Assembly (NCBI GenBank): GCA_038503065.1
Contig: JBCAMK010000014.1
Span: 558,001 to 622,000 of the forward strand
DNA: 64,000 nt
Direction: 5' to 3'
Source of the DNA: Paragyromitra xinjiangensis
Taxonomy: Eukaryota; Ascomycota; Pezizomycetes; Pezizales; Discinaceae
Shown: positions 2,323 through 58,445 of the stretch, in pieces
How positions within the stretch are numbered: position 1 is the stretch's first letter
Layout of the letters: each line of letters begins with the position of its first letter
The notes under the pieces: generated by a model
The model's input: only the letters and a program-made list of their open reading frames with translations
The model's database searches: none
What the model was told of the DNA's origin: nothing
Translations under genes and position numbers: made by a program

Positions 2323-3707
2323 TTAATCCAGCATGGATGCCTGGTTGGTATAAAGCACCTCGACAACATCCGACAGCTTCTTAATCGTCTCCAATGCCGC
2401 ATCATAGCTTTTATCTCTGCCAACCTCATCAAACACAATTAAGCATCCAGTGCCTTGATCCAACACCCCCGAAAATACCTTATCTAAGATCATCTGACTC
2501 AGCTTCCCCTCAACCTGCTGTGTGCCTAATCCAACCAGCTTTGCAACATGCTCGATCTCGACGCGTGAGAACGGTTCAATAACCCTGACTAGATTCTGCT
2601 CCAGGAGAGTATCGTACAGCGCCGTGAAGTGAGAGCGAATAAACGGATCCGATCCCAGCTCCTCCTTGTAGTCCGCAAGTGCTTGCTCGAATTCCGCCAG
2701 CGAGCGGTTCGAGTGCGCTCTCGCAACGGCCTTCATGGCTTCGATATCACGCCCTGCGTACTTGATCGCCAGCTTGCCAGTCATGATTTGATGGACGTCG
2801 TCCGTCAGGTTCAGCATGATCTTAGAGAGCAGCATGTATTTCAGCGCTGCAACAGCCTTCTTGGTCTCGTCCTGAGAAGAGTATCCGTCTAGCGCTTCAA
2901 TGAAGTACGAAAAAGCCGTGTTGTAATCTTTATCCTCAGCGTGGAGTATACCCGACTGCATGTCGAGCCCCGCTTGCATGAGTGGTGGGCAGTAGACAGA
3001 ATTTGCGGATGTGCGGGCTGACGTCAGTGATGCGCGGGATTTGGGAATATTGCGGAGGGCGTGGTAGGCGCGGGATTCGAGGAGCTGAACTTCGACAAGA
3101 ACCATTTTGTCATCGAGTCGCTTGAGCTCTTTGAGCAGTGAGTTGATGAGGGTTATTGCTTCGGTGTAGGAGTGTTTTTGAAGGTACAGCCCGATGAGGC
3201 GGGTCTCGAGGTTCTGACGTAGGAAAGAACGCTTTTCGGAGATGGCCCATTCGATGCAAGATTTGGTCACTGAGATTTGAATGTCAAGGGTGTCGGGAAT
3301 GGTTGTAAAGAGGTCAATCAGTTGGCGGACTGGTTTAGGTTAGCCTTTATCTTCCGTCCTCATCTATTTATCAAGACAAAGTGACAGTCCGCATACCAAT
3401 CTTTGCAGTCTTTGCTTTTGCGAATGCAGACAGTACTGACCGACTTGTCTTGATCAACTCCGCAAGCTCAGATGTTCGTCTATCCATACCCGGAGTTAAC
3501 TCTAATCCTCAATCCCCATCCTCTCCACCGAGGTGAAACGAACCTGCTATCCCGGTACAACCCTCCCAGCTCCATCAACGCCAGCTCGTAATCCCTTAGG
3601 GCAGCATCATTCATCCCAGGTGGTTTAGAGAGGATGTCCTTATAGATGGCCTCGGCCTTTGGCAGGTCCGTCTTTGCAAGCTCTTGAGCGTCTTCTAACC
3701 GGCCCAT
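2323..3707 (-). CDS. RPN6: 26S proteasome regulatory subunit RPN6 (PSMD11 family), 3 exons, 417 aa
   Basis: Exons on the minus strand are 3707-3544, 3479-3397 and 3329-2323; phases 2 and 1 match at the two junctions. The protein is RPN6/PSMD11-like over its whole length. An N-terminal helical-repeat region contains the family phrases [24 protein letters not shown] and [16 protein letters not shown]. The C-terminal PCI domain includes [40 protein letters not shown] and [18 protein letters not shown]6 is a lid subunit that clamps the 19S lid to the 20S core and is essential for proteasome assembly in yeast. The length is close to the usual ~420 aa. It has no functional link to its neighbours; it is a housekeeping gene. 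Confidence 0.95.
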
Positions 3708-16180: not shown

Positions 16181-17334
16181 TTACATCTCCGAGACGATGT
16201 GTGCATTGATAGTTCTGTGCAAAGCGGGATCGAAGTCATCGCTAAAGTTCTCAGTTGTTGGGCTAAAGTTGGAGTTAGCGGCGCTGCGGCTTGAGCCTTC
16301 ACCGTTGCCGATCTGGCTCTGGAGCTGATGCTGAAGCCCCGGGTTTGAGGTAGGCATGAAGATAACCTTGGCGTTTGCGGACTTGGCCATGGCTTGCATT
16401 GCTTCGAGCTGGCGGATTTGCATAGCAGGTGCGCTGGAAAGGATATCGGCGGCTTGACGCATCAACTTGGCGGATTCAACTTCTGCCCTAGCGGCAATAA
16501 TTTTGCTCTCTCCAATACGCTTGCTCTGGGCAGCCATGGAGAGAGAGTCTTGGAGTTCACGGCTGAAGATGATGTCCTTGATCAACATGCTCTCGACTTG
16601 AACACCCCAGCCAGTGGCAACATCTTCGATTATTTCAGCGATACTTTGGGCAATCTCCTCGCGACGCTCAATTACATCCTGCAAGACACGAGCGCCAACG
16701 ACATGGCGAAGAGTGGTTTGAGTACGCTCAACGAGTGCCTGGCGGACATTGACGATACCGAAAGTGGCCTTATGGGGAGAGATGATGTGGTAGTAGATGA
16801 CGGAGGTAAGATGAACTGTGACATTATCTTTGGTCATGCAGACTTGCTGAGGAACTTCGCAAATTTGGATCTTGACATCTACAGAGACAAGACGTTCTGA
16901 TAGCGGGTTGATCTTGACCAATCCAGGGTCGACGGCACGGTGGAATCTCCCAAATCTCGTGACCAATCCGACACTACCTTGCTGGACAGGCTTGTATGGG
17001 TTCGGGCAGCAGAGGCAGCAAGGAACGGCACCCATGAATCCAATGCAGGAACCGAGAGTGTTGACTAAGCTTTTGTTAGTAGCTATTATTGAACAATTAG
17101 AAGAGATAGCTTTGGGAACATACTCATAGCCCCATACCATCCGGTAGTAGAAGCATCGTTATCATCGGGGAGAAGTTGAGCGTAAGATGGCTGGAGATCG
17201 CTACGTTTCGCAGGTTGCACAACGATAAGTGGAGCATCGGTGTGAGTAGAACGAGTAGCACCAGGAGTTGAGTTGGAGCCACGATAACCACCATTGTTGG
17301 GGGTGCTATCGGTAGTCTTGATAGTATCAGTCAT
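16181..17334 (-). CDS. Stomatin/SPFH family membrane protein, 2 exons, 364 aa
   Basis: Exon 1 is 17334-17124 and exon 2 is 17064-16181, joined in phase 1 to read ...GAMINTLGSC.... The first ~70 residues are polar and disordered. A short membrane-associated hairpin with a Cys cluster (PCCLCCPNPY, about 85-94), likely palmitoylated, comes next. The PHB/stomatin domain (about 95-290) carries family phrases: VQQGSVGLVTRFGRFHRAVDPGL, MTKDNVTVHLTSVIYY, TTLRHVVGARVLQDVIERRE, ATGWGVQVESMLIKDI and AAQSKRIGESKIIAARAEVESAKLMRQAADIL. Stomatins oligomerise in lipid microdomains at the plasma membrane, endosomes or mitochondria and modulate other membrane proteins. The C-terminal ~50 residues are variable. 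The location in this organism is not determinable from sequence. Confidence 0.92.
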
Positions 17335-23904: not shown

Positions 23905-26900
23905 ATGACACTTCACGGCCCAAGGTGTCCTGTTAGCGGCAATTCTAATGCTTCCGGTTCTTGCCCTGGCTCCAGGAGTTCTTCAAGACTAGGACCTAGA
24001 GGCTGTGCATTCTCTGGATTTTCATTAGATGCTCAACAAGTTCTTTATGGTGTATGTATAGGATCATGTTAGCTCTATTTTCGAGTTATTCTCGTAATGG
24101 GTGTGCTTTAGTTAACATTGCGTGATATAGGCACCTCAAGGACCTAATGCTTCTGCAATATTATATGAAAACGAACGTAGAACCATAGTTGACGTATTAC
24201 TTCCGAAACCTCCCTCGAAAGAACAAACCTGGGGTCTAAAAAATGCCGATATCCTCACCCCTTCGTCAGAAGACGTCCTAGCTGCTGCACTGGGAGCGCC
24301 AGCACGTCGCGTTCTCCAGCGGGCAGAGACCATGGGACCGCGAACGGGCTGGCGGGATGGGTATCTCACAAGTTCACATGGATTCTGCCCACCGGATCCT
24401 TCGGTGTCTCCAATTGCTCTAGCCTCCTGTCCAGGAAGAGTTTGGAGTGATTTATGCAGTCGAATGCCTGGTCTTGTTAGTCGGGGAAAAATCAGAGAGG
24501 CTATCCTAGAGCTACCACTGATTAGTGGTGGGCCGGAAGTGGTTCCGGACCAAGCTCTGTGGGCTGCAACGGTCTGTCTAGGAATTTTGGCAAGTGTATA
24601 TCGCTACGAAGAGCGAAACGATGGTCACGAGGGCATCGTTGCTGGCGCAAACTCTTCAGCCTTTCTGAACGCTACGGGAGATGCGGAAGACGAAGAAGAG
24701 GAGACGAAGGGAATACCACGAAACGTTGCAATACCTCTGAGAACCGTATGCACTCGTATGGGACGCCCGTTACCACATCTCACCCAGTATGATGTTTCAA
24801 TCTACAATTATAAGTTACGCGATCCCACTAGTGTTTATCCTTATGTTGAGAGGTTTGAGAATATGGATCTTAGATGGCCGGTATTCAAAGATCTCGCTGA
24901 GCGTGGGTTCTTACTATGCATGGCTGCTAGCCATGGCTGCTTTACTCCTGGTGTTGAGCTAATCGCTCGTTGTCAAGAAATGGTAATGGATAGGTATGAT
25001 TTAAATAAATTTATCATCAAATCAATAGTTTATACTCCTGCTAACCTACAGCGTTATCTAGGGATAACGAAGGCCTACTAAGAACACTTGTAGCCTTGAA
25101 AGAAGTAGTTGACCAATTGGGCTACGTCTTTCATCAAATCAGTGTAAACCCAGGCTCGGGGGAAAATTTCTCGAATCCCGTAAGATCCATATTTTCGCCT
25201 GATATACACTAGTCCGGAAGTCTAATGGTTTTTAGGTTGAATGGGGTCAAAGGTACGCGAAATTCTCGGCGCCGCTTTCAAAACGTGTGCCAGCTCTATC
25301 TGGCCTGGCCTTGCCGCTATTCCAGCTCATGGATGCCTTCTTGGGTCGTAAAAAGTACGACAGCTTTCTTGGGCTAGAAGCATTACACCTTCGAGCGTGG
25401 TTGCCCTTGAATATTCGAGCATTTATCACAGCTGTGGAACAATATTATACAGTCCCTGAGTATGTGAAGACTAGCGGCGACTCGCGGCTGATGGGGGTAT
25501 TGGAAGGTATCGTTGAGTCTTACGCTGGAGAAAGAGGGTTCATGGGGACACACAGATGTAAGTGTTAGTATGGCTATTCAGGAGCTCTTCTAATGATAGT
25601 CCGATTTCAGATAAAGTTTATGGCTTTTTAGAAGTAGTAGCAAAAACCGGTCGCACAGAAACAAACGGCAATGCCGGGTCTGGCGACAATCAAGGCCGCC
25701 CTTGGGAAGAAGTCCATAAGACACTTTCCGACTCCATGATTGAAAGATTAGAACCATTCCGGGACTCGATAACTCGAAAGCCTCACGAAATGAGAGGTTG
25801 TTTTGAGGAATGCCGATTCAAAGCAAAAATTGAACGTCGCTCCTTTATTGACAATGATCCTGACCGTAGCACAGCGAAGGTCACCGTTGACCTCCTGAAG
25901 TCTGGGATTACTTTCGGCCCTGGTGATCGTCTTGCAATTATGCCGCTGAATAGCTGGAAGGAGGTAGTGAAGGTTGCTGACGCGCTAGGATTGCTGGAGC
26001 GGTTGGAAGAGGTTATCGCTTTGGAGAGATCATCTGAGTGGAAACGATACGCTGGCCATGAGGCATCTATTACAAGGAATCCTTCCGCTGCTCTCTTGAA
26101 AGTGAGGGACATTCTAAGGAAAGGACATTTGTTTCCTCTTACGAAAGAGACGGTTATGCAGGTAAGTCTAAAGCGTACTGGTTGTTGATTTGAGCCATTT
26201 TCTAAGCGTGAAATAAATCTAGATTCATGTTATTCTTCGAACTTCATCACCAACTGTCTTGAGAGTTCTTGCGTCTGATACATGGCCAGTCAGAGGCTCT
26301 CTTGGGGATCTATTATCCGCTGCTCGTACCGAGGTCATACCTGAACTCTGGAACAAGGCATTCAATCCAGACGACTTATCCTGGCTCCCCAGATTAATTG
26401 CCGTTGAAGTCCCTCGGACATACTCAATCTCTAGTCATTCCGATGAACTCCTGCCTAGCTCATTAGATTTGACAGTATCGCGTGTCAATCATAGTGTTTT
26501 TCCAGCCCTTCTTCTCAGTGGAAGCAGAAGAGAGGTTTGTGCCGGCGTGAGCAGCGGATTTCTTAACCCTCATCCAGAAGAAGAATTGATCATCTCTGAA
26601 ACTCCTGGTTTTGGTGATGTTGAAGATATTGTAAGGCCACATCATTGCTATGTTCCTCTCCTAAAATCCGGTGGCTTATCTTCGTAACAGGTGCTTGTTG
26701 GTGTATCTCGACCTTTGAACTTTCAGCTACCCATCTCACCCGCGGCACCGATAGCCATGTTCGCTGGTGGGTCAGGGATTGCACCTTTTAGAAGTTTCTG
26801 GACTGCACGCATTTCTTCCGGGGCTGTCGGACGAAACGTACTATTCTTGGGAGTCCAATCAAGAAAGAAACTAGTTTACGAAGACGAGCTTCGTGACCAT

Positions 26901-29179
26901 GTTCGATACAACGGTCTTGAGTTGCATACTGCATTTTCGCGCGACCGAAAGGGCCTCATGTATGATTCACACATTCGAGATCTAGTGGAAAGAGACATGG
27001 AGCCAAGATATCTCGATATGGCCATTGTCGAGAACGGACACACCGTTTGCGATCTCGTGATGTCAACAAAGCTTGGTGGACTAGGGGGATATCTTTACAT
27101 TTGCGGTTCAGTTTCCGTTTACGAGACTGTTATTTCTGGAATCAAAAAAGCAATCTACAATAACCGGACAGTAACAGAAAAGGACGCAGACAGCCTACTG
27201 GCAACTGCTTTTGCGGAGAGGCGGTTAATGCTTGACATATTCATGACACCCAGGGCGATGTCTTACAAAGAACCGATCATTTCAGTATCAGAACTCTCTA
27301 AAAATACTGGCCACCGTGAGGGTTCCAAAACATGGATTGGTGTTCATGGTGCGGTATACGACATTACGGATTTTCTCCCTATCCATCCTGGGGGCTCACT
27401 TATCGTCGCAGCCAGTGCTGGCTTAGATGCCACAAAGACTTTTGATGATCTTGCTCATACTTCAAATCCGGAAGTCATGAGTCTTCTTTCGAAATACTTC
27501 ATCGGGCACCTAGCTCCAAAGCCGAACCTACAGTCTACTGAGCTTTCTTCACTATACGATGGGTGGCAAGATTACTTACGGACGTGCGTTGAGAGTTTAA
27601 CCACGCTATCATTTGAAGTAAAGTCTCTCATGAAAGACAACAATATCTGGTTCTCTGGCGGTATGTTGAATATGGGAGGAGTACGCAAATTCTATCAAGT
27701 ATGTACTGTTCATCTGGTATTCGTAGAATTTCGCTGACAAAAGATTAGTTTCAATCACGTTTGATGCAGAATGCCTTCAGTGAGCTTTTCGGCCCCAGAC
27801 TACAAGAGCTGTACCTCAAATTAGCTTTCAACTTAATGGCCCTTGAAAACACCGGGTCACAGTTCCCAGACGTCATGGGAATAATCTCCCGTGCACAGTC
27901 ATCCCAATCAGCTACTCGGGCTCAGAAGGAGATTGCCCAAATTGGTGATATGGTGTGCAACAGTGGGGCAGCACAGTCAATCGAGCGTAGTTTGATTCGA
28001 TATGCTCAATCGGTTACAGAACTAGACGTACGGTTTTTAGAACAAATTCGAGAGGAAATTTGTACGGGCATGGATGGGTTCGATCTAGTTGCATCAATGA
28101 GAAACGCAAAAATGGAAAAGCAGGTACGTTTTAACGCAACCTCAAACAATGGAGACTTCCTGAGACGAAAAGTCCTAACTTGAGATTCTCTCCAGCGATT
28201 ATTTAAAATATCTGCCTTCTTAATCTCGCTACTTGAAAGGGTTGCTGAACGACTCGATACATTCTATAATGAGCTTGCTCAGCAATCTCTCTACCATCCA
28301 GAAATCGAAGAAAATCCTGCTCGTGCCCGGTGGAGACTCGTCAAGCGAAGAATATTCGATGGTAGTTTCTTCCTGTTCGCGCAAGAAGTGTCTTTGGGCA
28401 GGCAATCTCCCGACGGCATCGGTGGACCTATGTCACCATTTCAGCCTTTTCGTCAGGCGCGAATGCGCCAGAGTGTATCTTTCAATCAGATTGTGTCCAA
28501 TGCGAACGAAATGGTCAATCGATTGAACCGTAGCGGAGGTCTCGAGATACTGCAGGTTTCGTCAAATCGTGAGCAAGGACCCGACACTCGAAGCGACAAT
28601 AGGACTACTGCGAAGACCCCTAAGAGGTTGGCGGATATGCATACCACACGAGCGATAAGATCTGAACACCCAACTTCAAGCTACATTGACCACCTGGACC
28701 GAAAAGCTGCAAGTAGCATGTCGAATTTCATGTCCGAAAATGTAAAGGCACTCCGAAGACTGAGTCGAATCCCGCTGGACCTTAACCCCGCTACATTCCA
28801 ACGTGCGATAGGTGTATATGGCAGCTCCGACCATAGCGACCCCAATCATCATGGTGGCCTTAGTAAGCCAGTGCACAGACTAGCAAGGTCAATATCGGGA
28901 GCTACCATTAGTAGCAGAGCAAGCTCCCGAGAAAGACATGCCCCTGTGCTTATAGATAGTGTTAGGCTAGAGGATATTAGATCTAGGCCAAATCACGCAC
29001 ACTCCGAGAACCCTATATCTCATTTGATATCTTCGTCACGAGAGAGGTCCTCGTCTTCATCCTCATCTTTGTCTAAAAACACCCACAGGAAACTCTCAAT
29101 GTCTTCAGTTCATTCTGCGAATAGCGATGCGATGAGTCGAGGGCTGGAAGCGCTGAAAAAGAGATACGTAGCTACATAA
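23905..29179 (+). CDS. IDO-like heme domain / FAD-NAD(P)H reductase / cytochrome b5 fusion protein, 9 exons, 1591 aa
   Basis: Exons: 23905-24051, 24131-24993, 25062-25179, 25236-25557, 25611-26161, 26223-26630, 26691-27698, 27749-28123, 28196-29179; all introns are GT-AG, 49-79 bp, and all phases agree. Residues ~85-525 follow indoleamine 2,3-dioxygenase: SHGFCPPDP, PRNVAIP, FENMDLRWPVF, ERGFLL, VFHQI, then THRYKVYG with the proximal heme His (H482, IDO1 H346) and TGRT for the usual TGGT. F309 matches IDO1 F163; M313 replaces S167; R382 may match R231. Residues ~548-960 are a P450-reductase-type FAD/NAD(P) module (R732-T-Y-S, GGSGIAPF 829-836, YICGS at C941); no flavodoxin/FMN domain fits in the ~50-residue gap. 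Residues ~999-1080 are cytochrome b5 (HPGG H1035, second ligand H1059). A helical region (~1080-1310) and a Ser/Arg-rich tail of unknown function follow. Oxygenase activity is inferred; no substrate is known. Confidence 0.88.
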
Positions 29180-30244
29180 ACAGCTATAGCATTTGTATTT
29201 AGGAATTCTGTGCTAGAAATATGCCAGAAGAGTTTTTGCATTCATTACTCGTCTTTGATTCTAAACACTTAGTCATAGAAAATCACTCGAGACATTATAT
29301 ACTTGCTATCACAGCATTAGTACATCAAATAGTGAATTAGATGAGGCATACCATTCCTTTAATTTGTCATAGATATTTAGTCATGAGATTAGTGTTATCG
29401 TATCGCGAGAGGATCAGGAGTGAAAGAAAAGTGACGGTGGGCAAGGGTTGGCACACTCACAATTGAACGCAGCCACTCCTAGGCGTAGGTTGAGTGGAGT
29501 TCCTCAGAAACTCTCTAATAGATTAAAACAAAAATTCCACCCCATGTGAGTATAATTTATAGCGCGAAACCGATCCAGTGAGACCGCCTAATTATATCAA
29601 AGAAAAGATAAAGAAAATACCCTTACAACGTCTTGACCGTTCTGAGTATCATACCCCCTCCCCTAGGAGGCGGCTCAAATCGTTGATCGCCTTCAGTAGT
29701 CGTTTTAAGGCGGTTCCTAAGTCATCAATTAACAAACATATTTGGGTTGAATTCACTTGGCCTCAGCGGATTGGGTTTCTAGTTTCCTCAAAGGTCTTAT
29801 GGGATTGGACGAATGGGCCTCGTTCTATGAGGTTAGCCTAGCGCAGTAACCCAAGAGAACGACGCTGCTTCATAAATATATTTCAGAGATTTATGTGATG
29901 CCCTTTGCACTTTCGGGAATTTTTGGCTGGAGGGTGGTCTAAGGTATCTGCATCGATATCGACGATTCCGCAGCACACCCATGGTGCCACAGTGGCGGTG
30001 ATGTCAGACCCAGAAAACCGTGCGGTGCGGGACGGCAGGTTTAACGATTACTTGGCAGCCCGTGCATGGTGCAAATGCAAATCCCTCCCAAAGGACACGA
30101 CTTCCCCACTATCTAGACATTGGAAGAAACTAACCGAATCCTAAGAGTAAGTGAGCTTCCAACGATCTAAAGCTGAGGAGATTTACTGATTTGCGAGAGT
30201 TACTGTTAGGGTTTTCGATTCGGAAATTTTCGTCACACTGCAAC
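29180..30244. other. Intergenic stretch between the fusion gene and the ankyrin gene
   Basis: No gene is supported. One ATCACTCG is at 29282. An open frame at 29578-29841 shows no recognisable protein. The last 100 bases are the leader of the 30245 gene. Confidence 0.45.
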
Positions 30245-31327
30245 ATGTCCCTCCTTATTTTCCCAAATGAGCTCCTCCTCATGATCGCAAAGGAGCTCGA
30301 CAAACCGAAAGACGTCATTTCCTTGCTCCAGGCCAACCACCGCTTTGCTTTTATTTTGACACCAGTCCTGCATGAGTTCCCGCTGCGGACTCGAGACTAC
30401 GGAGAAGCGGCTCTTTTTTGGGCAGCAGCGAGTGGCCACGAATCGATGGCCAGGTTGTTGCTAGAGAGAGGTCTCAAGATGGAGATTGAAGGGGCTAGTG
30501 GAAAATTACTTCACAGGGCCCCAGGGAAATGCGATGATGCAACCATCAGACTGGTATTGGGGGAAGGCGCCAATCTCATCATAAGCAATAGCCTTTGGAA
30601 AATGACTGCGCTTCAATGGGCGGCATCCCGTGGACGTAGAGCATTAGTGGAACTACTATTATCGAAGGGGGCCGACACCAGTGTTCAAGACCACCGTGCA
30701 CACACAGCGCTTTGCCTAGCGGTCCTACACAAACATAAGGCAGTAATCGACCTGTTACTGAAGGAGGTGGAAGTTACCTTCGTGGATAGGCATGGGAGAA
30801 CCCCACTTCACGTGGCAGCCAAATGCTGCGATGCAACGGTTGCGAGATCGTTACTAGATAGAGGAGCTGACATCGCCGCCGTGGACAATGAAAATGGCTG
30901 TACACCACTTCTCACTGCAGTTCGGCGTGGAGATGAAGCATTAGTTTTGGTCGAACTATTACTGGAACGAGGAGCAAGTATTGGGGACCGAGATAGCCTT
31001 CAGCGGACGGCGCTACATTTGGCAGCAGCCAATAAAGGGATTAAGACGGCGGAGTTGTTGGTAGAAAGAGGTGCCGATGTTAATTCCCAGGATAGCTATC
31101 TAAGGACGTCCCTTCATGTTGCTGTTCAGTTCGGGTGCCCCGTTGTTGGTCTGTTGCTGGAAAAGGGTGCGGCCATTGATGTTCAAGATATTTTTGGCAG
31201 GACAGCGCTGTTGCTAGCCGCTCAGCGGGGTTCGGACTCAGCAGTGAGATTATTGGTAGAAAAGGGAGCTGATGCTACCATATCGGACAATTGTGGAAGG
31301 TTGGCACCTGGATGGGTATTGGAATGA
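30245..31327 (+). CDS. F-box-like/ankyrin-repeat protein, single exon, 360 aa
   Basis: Translation starts at the first in-frame ATG with MSLLIFPNELLLMIAKEL, an F-box-like helix pattern (P-N-E-L, then LLQANHRFAFILTPVLHEF). About eight ankyrin repeats follow from residue ~55 to the end, for example TALQWAASRGRRALVELLLS, RTPLHVAAKCCDATVARSLL, RTALHLAAANKGIKTAELLV and RTALLLAAQRGSDSAVRLLV. Ankyrin repeats bind proteins; an F-box-like N-terminus would suggest recruiting targets to an SCF ubiquitin ligase, but this is inference. A paralogue with the same opening (MSLLAFPNELLLLVAKGL) lies at 57070-58128 on the other strand, and a decayed ankyrin relic is near 21 kb. The last repeat is cut short before the stop. 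Confidence 0.85.
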   Translation: MSLLIFPNELLLMIAKELDKPKDVISLLQANHRFAFILTPVLHEFPLRTRDYGEAALFWAAASGHESMARLLLERGLKMEIEGASGKLLHRAPGKCDDATIRLVLGEGANLIISNSLWKMTALQWAASRGRRALVELLLSKGADTSVQDHRAHTALCLAVLHKHKAVIDLLLKEVEVTFVDRHGRTPLHVAAKCCDATVARSLLDRGADIAAVDNENGCTPLLTAVRRGDEALVLVELLLERGASIGDRDSLQRTALHLAAANKGIKTAELLVERGADVNSQDSYLRTSLHVAVQFGCPVVGLLLEKGAAIDVQDIFGRTALLLAAQRGSDSAVRLLVEKGADATISDNCGRLAPGWVLE

Positions 31328-39290: not shown

Positions 39291-39902
39291 ATGCCTCACG
39301 CTGAAAAAGATACCATGTCCACCACCGAGAATATAAAACCTACCATGAACGGGGAGACCCCCTCGTTCAAGTCCCTCCACCACCTTGCATCATACCCAAT
39401 CATCTCTGATTCAATCTCAACCTTTAAAGCGTACCCACTCGGCCAACGCTCCATCGAGATCACCCACTCTGCATATTGCACATTCATCGCGCCACTTTCA
39501 CCATACCTCTCTAAGGCTGCGCCCTACGTTGCCCGCGCTGATGAACTCGCTGAGAGCGGCCTTGGCAAGATTGATGAACGTTTCCCTATTGTCAAACAGC
39601 CTACTGAGAACATTAAAAACACGGTTGTCGAAACTATTGGCTATCCAAAGAAGCTCGCTGGTGAGGCTTACTTGCGTGGAACGGGCTTTGCGAAGGAAAC
39701 CAAAGAATATGTTTTCACAATTTACGACGACGAGCTTTCGAGGCAGGGAAATGCAGAGAGCCAAGGCAGATACATCCCAAAAGCCAAGGCTGGTGTAGCG
39801 GCCGGGCTAGTTGTAAGCTCGGAATTGATGGGTGCCATTGTGTCTTACCTGGGGAGTAAGAAGGAACAAGCTAAGGTAAAGGTTGATGAGATCAAGCAAT
39901 AA
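39291..39902 (+). CDS. Cap20/perilipin-like lipid-droplet protein, single exon, 203 aa
   Basis: After a polar start the protein carries the Cap20/MPL1 hallmarks: HLASYPIISDSISTFKAYPL, a Y.TF.APLSPYLSKAAPYV segment, ADELAESGLGKIDERFPIVK, and an amphipathic helix region through KETKEYVFTIYDDE. A moderately hydrophobic C-terminal stretch (about 167-188, AGVAAGLVVSSELMGAIVSYLG) could attach it to a lipid monolayer. In Metarhizium and Colletotrichum, members coat lipid droplets and affect lipid storage and appressorium turgor. Length is close to the family norm. A second ATG lies nine codons in (MSTTENIK). The leader probably has an intron. Confidence 0.88.
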   Translation: MPHAEKDTMSTTENIKPTMNGETPSFKSLHHLASYPIISDSISTFKAYPLGQRSIEITHSAYCTFIAPLSPYLSKAAPYVARADELAESGLGKIDERFPIVKQPTENIKNTVVETIGYPKKLAGEAYLRGTGFAKETKEYVFTIYDDELSRQGNAESQGRYIPKAKAGVAAGLVVSSELMGAIVSYLGSKKEQAKVKVDEIKQ

Positions 39903-45849: not shown

Positions 45850-48185
45850 TTAATCAATACACTGGCATCTCTCATCGGTATCTGCAGGTCTTCTCCTATC
45901 ACTCAACGAAGGACAGCTGACCGCCAGCTTCGGATCCGCGCATTTGAACGTGATCATCCAACTTTTCTCCATCACACGACCAAATGAGGGATGGTCCGGT
46001 TCATCAGTGCCCTTGGCCTCCTTGTGGATCCAGTGTTTCTTGTCGCTTTCCAAAAGCGTTCTCAGGTGCTCATAGATATGCTTAGGAGTGCCCCTAATAC
46101 GTTTGGCAGAAACAATGAATTGACCGGAGTTTGAGAGGAGCACGTTGGAAGCAGGACAGATTTCAGAATATACGGCGGCGAAAATCTCCGGAACACGGCT
46201 CAAGTTATCCTTGCCGCTCCATGGATCTTTACACGAACCGCAGGCACAGGTGCCATATCCTGAGCTGAGTGAAAGAACACCAGTGCGAGGCTTGAAGTAC
46301 TCCTCAATACGACCTTCGACTGCTGCAATATCCTTGAAACCGCCGTTAAGGAATACAGTGTGCTCTGCGAGGTCATCCCATTGGTCTACGATATGCGCTA
46401 GATATGTGTCGTCGTCTCCTCCAGCAGATCCTAGCATCTTTACCATGGCTGCGTCGGTTTGTTGCTGGATGTTAGTTTGGTCTGATTTCGGGTCCCTGAA
46501 ATAGACGACGACGCGGGGATCGAGGCCGGCGAAAGCACCAAAGCCTTTAATTTGCTTCAAACCAAAGCCGACTTTCGAGGGGATTTCGGTCTTCATGCTG
46601 ATGACAATATCGAGTTTCCGTGGGGACTTGTAATTCGTATCCGGAGTGCTGACAGGGAAGATCCCAGGGAGTATTGCCGACGAATCAGGAACTCTAGACC
46701 CAGTATATCCCGTGTTGCTTCCTGCGCTGTTATTTCCCCCATACAATGTTCCTAAGCCGAGTAGTAGGAATATCACAGTCGCGCCAATGACTGTAGCTTT
46801 TCGCAAGGCTGGATAAGTGCTGCCAAACCTCTGCCATGCCATTGTGCCATCGTTTCGAATTCTGGCGTAGCTCTCCTTGAGTTTATCAGCTCCAAGCTTG
46901 TAATAGACGAGACCTCCCAATGCAATGCTGTATCCAAACATCTGAAGAACAGAAAGAGGGTCGCCCCAGATCAAAACCGAGGCGCAAACGAGGAGGATAT
47001 CCTTTAGTACACCACAAAGGGTAAGAACCAAGGAGGAGGTTTTCCCGATCTGCAGAAGTTAGCTATTACCATGCAGAATTACCCGCCTATATAGATTCTT
47101 ACCAAAAACACGACCGACACATTCAAACAAAAAGCTACCATAGCATTTGCCAATAGGGTAAAAAAGCCGACGCGCAAAATGTCGCTCAATCCAAGCGAAG
47201 ATCCCTCAAAGATGAGATACATGAGGAAGTTCATGGCCGCGCAGACGGGAGCAAAGTAGTATAGGGATACCAAAGGATCCATCTTGAACTCTGCTGATGA
47301 CAGAAGCCTCTGTACCATCACAAGACGGATAGCCTCAAAAACAATACCGACGACTTGGTAGACAAAACCGGTGAGATTGAACGCAATCTCTCCGTAGGAG
47401 GCGATAACAACACCGATAACGATGAAAGAAACATTACCCAGGACTTTGAGATTAGGCTTATCAATTGCCAATCCCCATCCCGCGAGAAGAACTGCCACTG
47501 GGGTAGTTGCCTGTTCGGTTACAGTGAGCTCTAATGGACTGTGGATATGATCCCTAGGAAGGGCATGTCACACCTTCAGCATCTGAATGAAAGAAACACT
47601 GAGATACAGATATGCTTTGTTGCTGCAAATCAAGCTTAAACTAAAAAAGAATCCGATGGGTACAATTGCTCTCAAATATATCTTTCCGGTCATCTTAACG
47701 GTATGGCGGCCATCGAGAAGGGTCGAAGTTCTCGCAAGGATTTGTGTCGCGATCGTCGCAAATAGCAGATGCCATGTTGTGAGGAATATGGCTATATTGG
47801 TCCAATTATTATTTAGCTCCATCTCCGAGGAATGATGTACAGGCAGGGCGCAGGATGAATAGCTGGGGCCTTACGGAAAGCTGCAGCAAACCATCAGTAA
47901 TTGAATCGTCAAAATTCCTAAATCTTCGGGGACTTACAAAATTGCAGTGTAAATAAAATCCATTTATTGAATAGGATGACGGATGAGCTCATCCCAATCC
48001 ATATGCTGCGAGGGGGAAAACATTAGCTTCCCACCCTGTCCGTCAAGTCCAACTCAAACTCACACTACATAGACTGCTGGGTGCAGAGATGGTTTCGGGG
48101 CCGAAGTAACGTTCGGTACTGGCAGCGTGGGCTCTCGAGAACCTAAGGAATCGCCATTCCTCCCGTCGGAGGAATCACCAGCCAT
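45850..48185 (-). CDS. TPT-family nucleotide-sugar transporter fused to a DUF3431-like domain (candidate GlfB), 6 exons, 673 aa
   Basis: Minus-strand exons: 48185-48064, 48005-47938, 47880-47875, 47791-47574, 47510-47103, 47049-45850. Exon 3 is six bases; it restores the SFPIFLTTWH phrase of TPT/DUF250 transporters and keeps frame. Residues ~38-345 are a multi-span TPT/SLC35-type carrier (LFNKW, FLTTWHLLFATI, SLICSNKAYLYLSVSFIQMLKA, TTPVAVLL). An extra hydrophobic span follows (~358-377), then residues ~418-650 resemble DUF3431: HTYLxHIVDQWDDLAEHTVFL-type phrase, a Cys-rich loop (TCACGSC), VYSEICPASNVL, SGQFIVSAKRIRGTP. With both carrier ends cytosolic, the extra span would put DUF3431 in the Golgi lumen (inference). 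It is divergently paired with UDP-galactopyranose mutase, as glfB is next to glfA in A. fumigatus, so UDP-galactofuranose is the likeliest cargo. Confidence 0.85.
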
Positions 48186-57069: not shown

Positions 57070-58128
57070 CTAATTTTGGCTAGCCACCTTCTTCATATCA
57101 TGCTGGAGCAGCAACTTGATAATCTCCCCAGCACGGCGCTCCACGGCCGCCATAAGTGGTGTATATCCGGCATAGTTCTCCACCTCCGTCTGTGCCCCAT
57201 TTTCAAGCAGCAGTTTAACTGAATCTACATTTTCATGGGCCACAGCTTCGTGAAGCGCTGTTTGCCCACAGTAACTCTGAATCTCCAAATTGGCGCCTCC
57301 CTCAACCAGCAATCTTGTCATATCGCTACTCCACACTGCCCAGTGTAACGCAGTCTGGCCCCCACTTTCACCGGTATAACTATGGGTCGGTATGCTTGAC
57401 TGAATGTCTAGATCTGCTCCTTCTTCCACCAAAATTTTAACAACCGCAAAATAATTATCCCTCACAGCTCTATGAAGCGTCGTGAGCCCGCAGCTATCTA
57501 GCTCATTGATTCGCGCGCCATTTGCCAACAATAACTTGACCAACGCTTCACCTGCACTTTGAGGGACTGTGTCTGGATAGAAACCTTCAGTGGGTGATGA
57601 TAGAAGCAAGCCTACATCTGCATTTACAGTCCAATGTAGCGCCGTCATTGCAGATAGACAACTGATGTCCTGAAGGTTTGGGTTTGCCCCTTTCTCCAGC
57701 AATAGTTTGCACATGTTGACGTCGCTTTTTCGAACCGCCCATATCAATGCATTGCACCCTTTCCCATCCCAGTAACCCATATATAACCTACTTTTTGGTA
57801 GTAGTCGGACCATCTCTCTCTCCATCTTTTTCGTGTCCCATGCATTGATATCAACACCCTTATCTAGTAGCAGTCTGGCGAGGGGTTCGTGGCCATGTTT
57901 GGAGGCCCAGCAAAGTGCCGGACTTCCATCTTTCGGCCGCACGGCGAGGTCATGAAGGAGCGGGGTAAGGAGATGGTTGATCGAACGATTGGTTCTGAGG
58001 AGGGAATTTAGATCCTTCGGTTCGAGGCCTTTCGCGACCAGTAGGAGGAGTTCGTTTGGGAACGCGAGAAGCGACATTAATTTCGGAACCGATTTATGAA
58101 GATGTCTGATTTGCATTGAAATATCCAT
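57070..58128 (-). CDS. F-box-like/ankyrin-repeat protein, single exon, 352 aa
   Basis: The first in-frame ATG is at 58128. An alternative at 58077 gives MSLLAFPNELLLLVAKGLEP, the same opening as the 30245 paralogue, and may be the true start. After the F-box-like helix (EPKDLNSLLRTNRSINHLLTPLLHDL), ankyrin repeats fill the rest: PALCWASKHGHEPLARLLLD, NALIWAVRKSDVNMCKLLLE, TTLHRAVRDNYFAVVKILVE, TALHWAVWSSDMTRLLVEGG, TALHEAVAHENVDSVKLLLE and TPLMAAVERRAGEIIKLLLQ. The frame is intact to the stop. Partner and role are unknown. The paralogue at 30 kb is on the opposite strand, so this is dispersed rather than tandem duplication. Confidence 0.85.
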   Translation of the reverse strand: MDISMQIRHLHKSVPKLMSLLAFPNELLLLVAKGLEPKDLNSLLRTNRSINHLLTPLLHDLAVRPKDGSPALCWASKHGHEPLARLLLDKGVDINAWDTKKMEREMVRLLPKSRLYMGYWDGKGCNALIWAVRKSDVNMCKLLLEKGANPNLQDISCLSAMTALHWTVNADVGLLLSSPTEGFYPDTVPQSAGEALVKLLLANGARINELDSCGLTTLHRAVRDNYFAVVKILVEEGADLDIQSSIPTHSYTGESGGQTALHWAVWSSDMTRLLVEGGANLEIQSYCGQTALHEAVAHENVDSVKLLLENGAQTEVENYAGYTPLMAAVERRAGEIIKLLLQHDMKKVASQN

Positions 58129-58445
58129 TGTATACTCTGATGATGTTGTCACAACGTGTGTTAGTGGTGTGGGAGGGAGATTATTTAAGCATGTGGGTGG
58201 GTGCAGGGGTGCACGTACGACCTTATGCTCATGTCAATGATCAAATTAGTAGCTGCAATTCGTCTGAAATAAACCTCACACCCCTCATATAAGTTTGTGT
58301 TTTAGCTAAAAGGTAGATCGTAATAAATAAAATGCCAAGACCACCAACCATTATTCTCAAAAAAGATACAAAATTAACTAACTGCTTTCAACGCTCCTAG
58401 ACGCATGAATACATGTGGAATGTCTAAGCACGAGCCTTGATGATA
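58129..58445. other. Promoter region of the ankyrin gene and 3' flank of the GMC relic
   Basis: No gene is seen. The part next to 58128 is the leader and promoter of the minus-strand ankyrin gene; the rest is A/T-rich. Confidence 0.4.

Follow-up and report, generated by a model that had tools for sequence, protein, structure and literature searches.

What reduces indoleamine 2,3-dioxygenase (IDO) in cells is called unclear in one paper (PMC13142367), and a gene of the fungus Paragyromitra xinjiangensis raises the question of whether an IDO-type heme and the proteins that might reduce it can be carried by a single polypeptide. The gene occupies positions 23905-29179, on the + strand, of a 64,000-nucleotide stretch referred to here as the window (assembly GCA_038503065.1, contig JBCAMK010000014.1, 558,001-622,000 of the forward strand), and its predicted spliced model joins nine exons into 1591 codons plus one terminal stop. 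Profile matches and predicted folds place an IDO-type domain with its proximal histidine, a flavin adenine dinucleotide (FAD)/NADPH module and a cytochrome b5 with both heme histidines in one polypeptide that is conserved in many fungi. We consider it probable that this protein is a self-sufficient NADPH-dependent oxygenase, with a His-ligated b-type heme in the IDO-type domain; its substrate is likely to be an indole or some other small aromatic, though not necessarily L-tryptophan. Such a natural fusion makes the question of IDO reduction testable in one purified protein.

Domain architecture of the fused protein

The initial annotation had described an IDO scaffold followed by an FAD/NAD(P)H module and a cytochrome b5 domain, and Pfam gives all four corresponding domains above or at their cut-offs. 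The scan was run on a 1584-residue version of the model, which differs from the 1591-residue model only after residue 1139. The IDO family (PF01231) matches residues 129-364 with 56.9 bits against a cut-off of 26, covering only profile positions 8-211 of 412. FAD_binding_1 follows at residues 553-651 with 32.3 bits, exactly its cut-off, then NAD_binding_1 at 826-907 (32.6 bits, cut-off 22) and Cyt-b5 (PF00173) at 1003-1077 (54.8 bits, cut-off 23.7). The reported lack of a flavin mononucleotide (FMN) or flavodoxin domain also holds, as no such family appears in the scan at E <= 1, nor among the Pfam domains of the best 120 of 325 homologues. The motifs PRNVAIP, FENMDLRWPVF, VFHQI, RTYS, GGSGIAPF and YICGS, together with His482, His1035 and His1059, lie where they had been placed. 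Residue counts given below are from an alignment of 119 rows, comprising the query and 118 of the best 120 homologues (P0047 and P0094 were excluded by length).

The IDO-type heme domain

Human IDO1 is matched with E = 1.2e-15 by a 12-row profile built from relatives of the IDO part, and the predicted fold of homologues matches IDO1 and IDO2 across the whole heme domain, at an identity of about 20%. These two results put the domain assignment far beyond chance. Membership of the IDO family, on which the initial annotation had staked its proposal beforehand, is thus the common answer of the PF01231 match, the IDO1 profile match and the predicted fold. By way of IDO, the predicted fold and the proximal histidine would also bring the protein into the heme-dependent aromatic oxygenase superfamily; PrnB, TDO and MarE are absent among the best 50 structure-match rows, which is not evidence against kinship.

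The proximal His482 is kept in 118 of 119 rows, the remaining row having Arg, and a global profile alignment pairs it with the canonical proximal histidine, IDO1 His346, across a 3-residue gap. In the same alignment Ser398, invariant in all 119 rows, stands opposite IDO1 Ser263, and the equally invariant pair S398-G399 falls where IDO has an active-site loop.

The same genome encodes a canonical IDO, with GTGGT and FxxxxR motifs, on contig C10. A divergent third IDO-family locus was seen on contig C21 (L004/L010), with a putative heme-ligand region RHWCFTREYI and a TATGGS loop; it is probably split by introns.

The reductase module and cytochrome b5

The residues of RTYS are kept in 118 of the 119 rows. 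Ser886, Arg887, Cys941, Asp985 and Phe987 are invariant; we match these five to the residues with which P450 reductase binds NADPH and transfers hydride. For homologue P0029, an alignment to SiR-FP likewise pairs the counterpart of Asp985, and Foldseek ranks the FAD domain of BM3 first among the matches of the long homologue model. As judged from alignments and predicted folds, the FAD/NADPH module is complete and of the sulfite-reductase/P450-reductase type, with the FMN domain missing. Both histidines annotated as heme ligands of the cytochrome b5 are retained across the family, His1059 in all 119 rows and His1035 in 117, the other two rows being gapped at this position.

Most database names for the family reflect the reductase part or call the protein hypothetical; they include "NADPH--hemoprotein reductase", "sulfite reductase flavoprotein alpha-component" and "related to nitric-oxide synthase", with "indoleamine 2,3-dioxygenase" in a few cases. 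Identity as a sulfite reductase, nitrate reductase or nitric oxide synthase was rejected, since the shared part is only the FAD/NADPH module (plus cytochrome b5 for nitrate reductase); for sulfite reductase, the NCBIfam models also score far below their cut-offs in three family members. The architecture described here corrects the misleading sulfite reductase, nitrate reductase and NOS-related names.

Segments outside the four domains

Two further parts of the protein are conserved. The N-terminal CP...CP...GPRGCAF segment (residues 1-49) resembles heme-regulatory Cys-Pro motifs. GPRGC occurs within the first 80 residues in 88 of 119 rows, and Cys-Pro within the first 60 residues occurs twice in 78 rows, once in 12 and not at all in 29. 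Behind the cytochrome b5, residues ~1085-1330 (~27535-28390) form a well conserved region that, among the searches made, was seen only in the fused protein family: a search with it gave 37 homologues, whose recorded Pfam domains are only Cyt-b5 and NAD_binding_1. The corresponding region of P0226, P0230 and P0237 has no Pfam match at E <= 5, and profile A4, which starts inside it, gave a single match against the PDB at E 0.88, nothing convincing.

Distribution and paralogues

The homologue search, which scored the 7,992 candidates with the most shared words, gave 325 matches, and the best 120 were taken. All four domains are found in 114 of these; five of the six exceptions are without one domain and the sixth is without two. 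The taxonomic search proposed in the initial annotation finds the same architecture many times over. No paper describing an IDO, reductase and cytochrome b5 architecture was found by title or abstract start in the open-access literature, with subscription journals mostly outside its coverage, and no experimental description came to light; the protein itself is not unique and belongs to a widely conserved fungal family already in databases. What appears to be new here is a putative self-sufficient heme oxygenase architecture built on an IDO-type domain, the sequences of which were already public.

Among the matches listed, the closest by identity come from Kalaharituber (66%), Ascobolus (65%) and Trichophaea (65%), genera that we place by name in the Pezizomycetes. 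In a quick tree built from the query plus 34 listed homologues, the window gene clusters with the sequences from these genera (4 rows, support 96). Judged likewise by genus name, the homologues presumably represent Pezizomycetes, Eurotiomycetes, Leotiomycetes, Dothideomycetes, Sordariomycetes, Geoglossomycetes, Agaricomycetes and one chytrid (Gaertneriomyces), and some are metagenome proteins. The tree contains one fully supported split, of 13 versus 22 rows. Since five ascomycete genera (Paraphoma, Lentithecium, Amniculicola, Periconia and Leptodontidium) are each represented on both sides, the fused protein forms two paralogous groups. The window gene shares its side with the sequences from basidiomycetes and the chytrid; the rows of the chytrid and of Geoglossum form long branches whose position is unsure. 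A search of the window genome showed no second copy of the fused gene.

Beyond the fungi, two degenerate peptide patterns matched 95 stretches in a bacterial and archaeal genome collection, none of which was confirmed as a relative. Plasmids gave no match to P0121, with canonical IDO present in 10 plasmid records, and phages gave no match to P0220. The IDO part searched alone gave 105 matches; judged by their lengths and by six inspected sequences, most of these seem to be pieces of fused genes split by introns. P0207 and P0220 stand further off, at 37-38% identity. P0220 (388 residues, ENA source, 38% identity) runs by eye into sequence resembling an FAD domain, and Pfam calls no FAD domain in it.

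Proposed electron transfer and function

In the scheme that we propose, NADPH would transfer hydride to FAD, which would release single electrons one at a time to cytochrome b5; the b5 would then swing to the IDO heme, acting as the shuttle that P450 reductase has in its FMN domain. Such a part is suggested for the b5 because the FMN domain is absent and the b5 is present; direct transfer from FAD to the IDO heme, bypassing the b5, would be an alternative route. Held ferrous, the heme could bind O2, with a further electron available in the case of monooxygenation, and activation of O2 would lead to oxygenation of the aromatic substrate. Pure dioxygenation needs electrons only to repair oxidised heme, while monooxygenation consumes electrons on each turnover. 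As a permanent reductase would be more useful to a monooxygenase than to a dioxygenase, we lean with moderate confidence towards the former. A more specific proposal, to which we give slightly less than an even chance, is that this is the first self-sufficient oxygenase on an IDO-type His heme, in which fused NADPH/FAD/b5 components drive a P450-like monooxygenation of a fungus-wide aromatic metabolite, with the b5 replacing the FMN domain as one-electron shuttle.

Work on separate proteins provides context. According to PMC13142367, IDO1 needs reduction of its heme, which P450 reductase can support in vitro whether or not b5 is present; titles in its reference list call b5 a major reductant in cells, and the paper itself calls the in vivo role unclear. 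Two other papers describe a monooxygenase side reaction of IDO1 (PMC12921851) and the related MarE as a monooxygenase (PMC11904535).

Several points weigh against the proposed scheme. Its basis is sequence and fold prediction, and the structure models cover homologues rather than the window protein. The local HMMER alignment is out of register at the heme histidine, placing IDO1 His346 three residues before His482. Neither sequence alignment, HMMER or global profile, gives a counterpart to IDO1 Arg231 and Phe226, the positions of which fall within a poorly aligned stretch. In the HMMER register the Phe226 column is Gly in 119 of 119 rows, and a few residues beyond it lies Arg382, present in 110 rows, which could fill the role of Arg231. 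Neither the ~250 conserved residues of the C-terminal region nor the Cys-Pro segment at the N terminus is explained by the scheme, and the b5 might pass electrons to a different acceptor. The superfamily member PrnB was not activated by the redox partners tested, b5 and P450 reductase among them (PMC11791213), so these donors do not serve every superfamily member.

Alternative readings

The protein could instead be a true tryptophan 2,3-dioxygenase yielding N-formylkynurenine, with the reductase and b5 serving only to hold the heme ferrous by reductive activation. We regard this as unlikely, since neither alignment puts an Arg at the Arg231 position and the genome already has its separate canonical IDO. 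"IDO-like" should not be equated with tryptophan dioxygenase, because the residues with which IDO binds the carboxylate of tryptophan are not recovered by alignment in the predicted protein.

Flavohemoglobin combines a heme domain with an NADPH/FAD module, and by the same logic the reduced IDO-type heme with O2 might turn nitric oxide (NO) into nitrate and be re-reduced through NADPH, FAD and b5. The wide conservation of the protein and the lack of a biosynthetic gene among ten scanned neighbours would suit such a general stress role in detoxifying NO or another small ligand. Here, however, the predicted fold of the heme domain is that of IDO and not of a globin, and invariants such as S398-G399 suggest an organic substrate, leaving this reading improbable.

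We also regard as improbable the possibility that the reductase-b5 half is the working enzyme for an external acceptor and the IDO domain a regulatory heme sensor, with the Cys-Pro motifs as a heme-responsive element. The pair of motifs found close to the N terminus in 78 of the 119 rows would fit this role, and the conserved C-terminal region could bind a partner. No partner is known, however, and the IDO domain shows roughly the same conservation as the reductase (30-residue blocks reach ~0.8 in both), unexpected for a drifting sensor.

The self-sufficient oxygenase remains our preferred reading. If the more specific monooxygenase proposal is true, the natural fusion would show b5 and a P450-reductase-type module to be biological electron donors of IDO-type hemes. 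Should the substrate be other than tryptophan, the protein would be a self-sufficient addition to the histidine-heme oxygenases and a possible biocatalyst needing no external redox partner, and it would point to a widely shared fungal metabolite.

Gene model and genomic surroundings

An artefact in which two adjacent genes are read as one has only a trace of probability and was rejected: although the fused model rests on predicted splice sites, the IDO-FAD junction lies within a single exon, as exon 5 holds both the end of the one domain and the start of the other, the four domains recur together in 114 of the best 120 of 325 homologues, which come from many fungi and assemblies, and some homologues are long on short contigs (P0115 has 1530 residues, the longest contig being 5,458 bases). 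Splicing and the single transcript are predicted. All introns of the model are GT...AG and 50-79 bases long. The 3' splice site of exon 8 was placed at 27749 rather than 27770 because homologues have an added FQSRLMQ stretch, and the resulting length agrees with the 1591 residues of the initial annotation. A like N-terminal layout in homologues, for example Kalaharituber P0001, supports the start of the model.

Table 1. Exons of the predicted fused gene and neighbouring open reading frames (ORFs), in window positions
Feature	Position	Strand	Content	Basis
Exon 1	23905..24051	+	Residues 1-49; N-terminal segment with two Cys-Pro motifs (C8, C20) and GPRGCAF (C34)	Splice model, motif counts
Exon 2	24131..24993	+	Beginning and first half of IDO-type heme domain	Splice model, Pfam (PF01231 match 129-364)
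Exon 3	25062..25179	+	IDO domain, VFHQI region	Splice model, profile alignment to IDO1
Exon 4	25236..25557	+	IDO domain with proximal heme His482 (GTHRYK; last codon split into exon 5)	Splice model, alignments
Exon 5	25611..26161	+	End of IDO domain (TNG loop, last helix) and start of FAD-binding domain	Splice model, Pfam
Exon 6	26223..26630	+	FAD-binding domain with RTYS (R732, Y734, S735)	Splice model, alignment
Exon 7	26691..27698	+	NADPH-binding domain (GGSGIAPF, AFSRD, YICGS, LDIF), cytochrome b5 (His1035, His1059), start of C-terminal region	Splice model, Pfam, alignments
Exon 8	27749..28123	+	Conserved C-terminal region, without Pfam family match	Splice model, homologue comparison, Pfam
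Exon 9	28196..29179	+	Last conserved stretches (NPARARW, DGSFF), low-complexity tail, stop codon 29177-29179	Splice model
Neighbouring ORFs	2323-3270, 16181-17140, 30191-31327, 39291-39902, 45850-47031, 57070-58152		RPN6, band-7/SPFH, ankyrin-repeat (30191, 57070), perilipin-like below cut-off, DUF3431	

Ten of the 23 ORFs of at least 150 residues in the window were scanned. They comprise proteasome RPN6, a band-7/SPFH protein, two proteins with ankyrin repeats, a perilipin match that stays below its cut-off, a DUF3431 protein and four without a family, and these ten give no sign that the fused protein is a gene-cluster enzyme. As the scanned neighbours either resemble common housekeeping and repeat proteins or belong to no family, a pathway cannot be read from the context.

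Comparison with known systems

In general layout the fused protein resembles CYP102/P450-BM3, where a heme oxygenase domain is likewise followed by a P450-reductase-type FAD/NADPH module in one chain. The heme of the P450 is Cys-ligated, whereas here it would be held by histidine in an IDO-type domain, with no FMN domain and with a cytochrome b5 behind the reductase. The diflavin enzymes, sulfite reductase flavoprotein and NADPH-P450 reductase, share the predicted FAD/NADPH fold and its catalytic residues, but their flavodoxin-like FMN domain is absent here. Nitric oxide synthase also joins a heme oxygenase domain to a P450-reductase-type reductase, and P0031 and P0055 are named "related to nitric-oxide synthase, salivary gland"; its heme domain is nevertheless a different one, its FMN domain is absent here and a b5 is present, so that the shared part is the reductase. 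NCB5OR and nitrate reductase carry b5 and an FAD/NAD(P)H module in one chain, but in another domain order, with a module of the cytochrome-b5-reductase type and no IDO domain.

On the heme side, PrnB, MarE, TyrH and SfmD belong to the superfamily that includes IDO and show that the fold can perform monooxygenation and other oxidations; the accessible portions of the papers mention no fused reductase or b5 (PMC11791213, PMC11904535), whereas the fused protein has both. IDO1 and IDO2 share with it the predicted whole-domain fold, the proximal histidine and a Ser263-type residue, although it is about 20% identical to them and, by sequence alignment, has no Arg231/Phe226 counterpart. IDO1 needs separate reductants (PMC13142367), whereas the fused protein has its own reductase and cytochrome b5.

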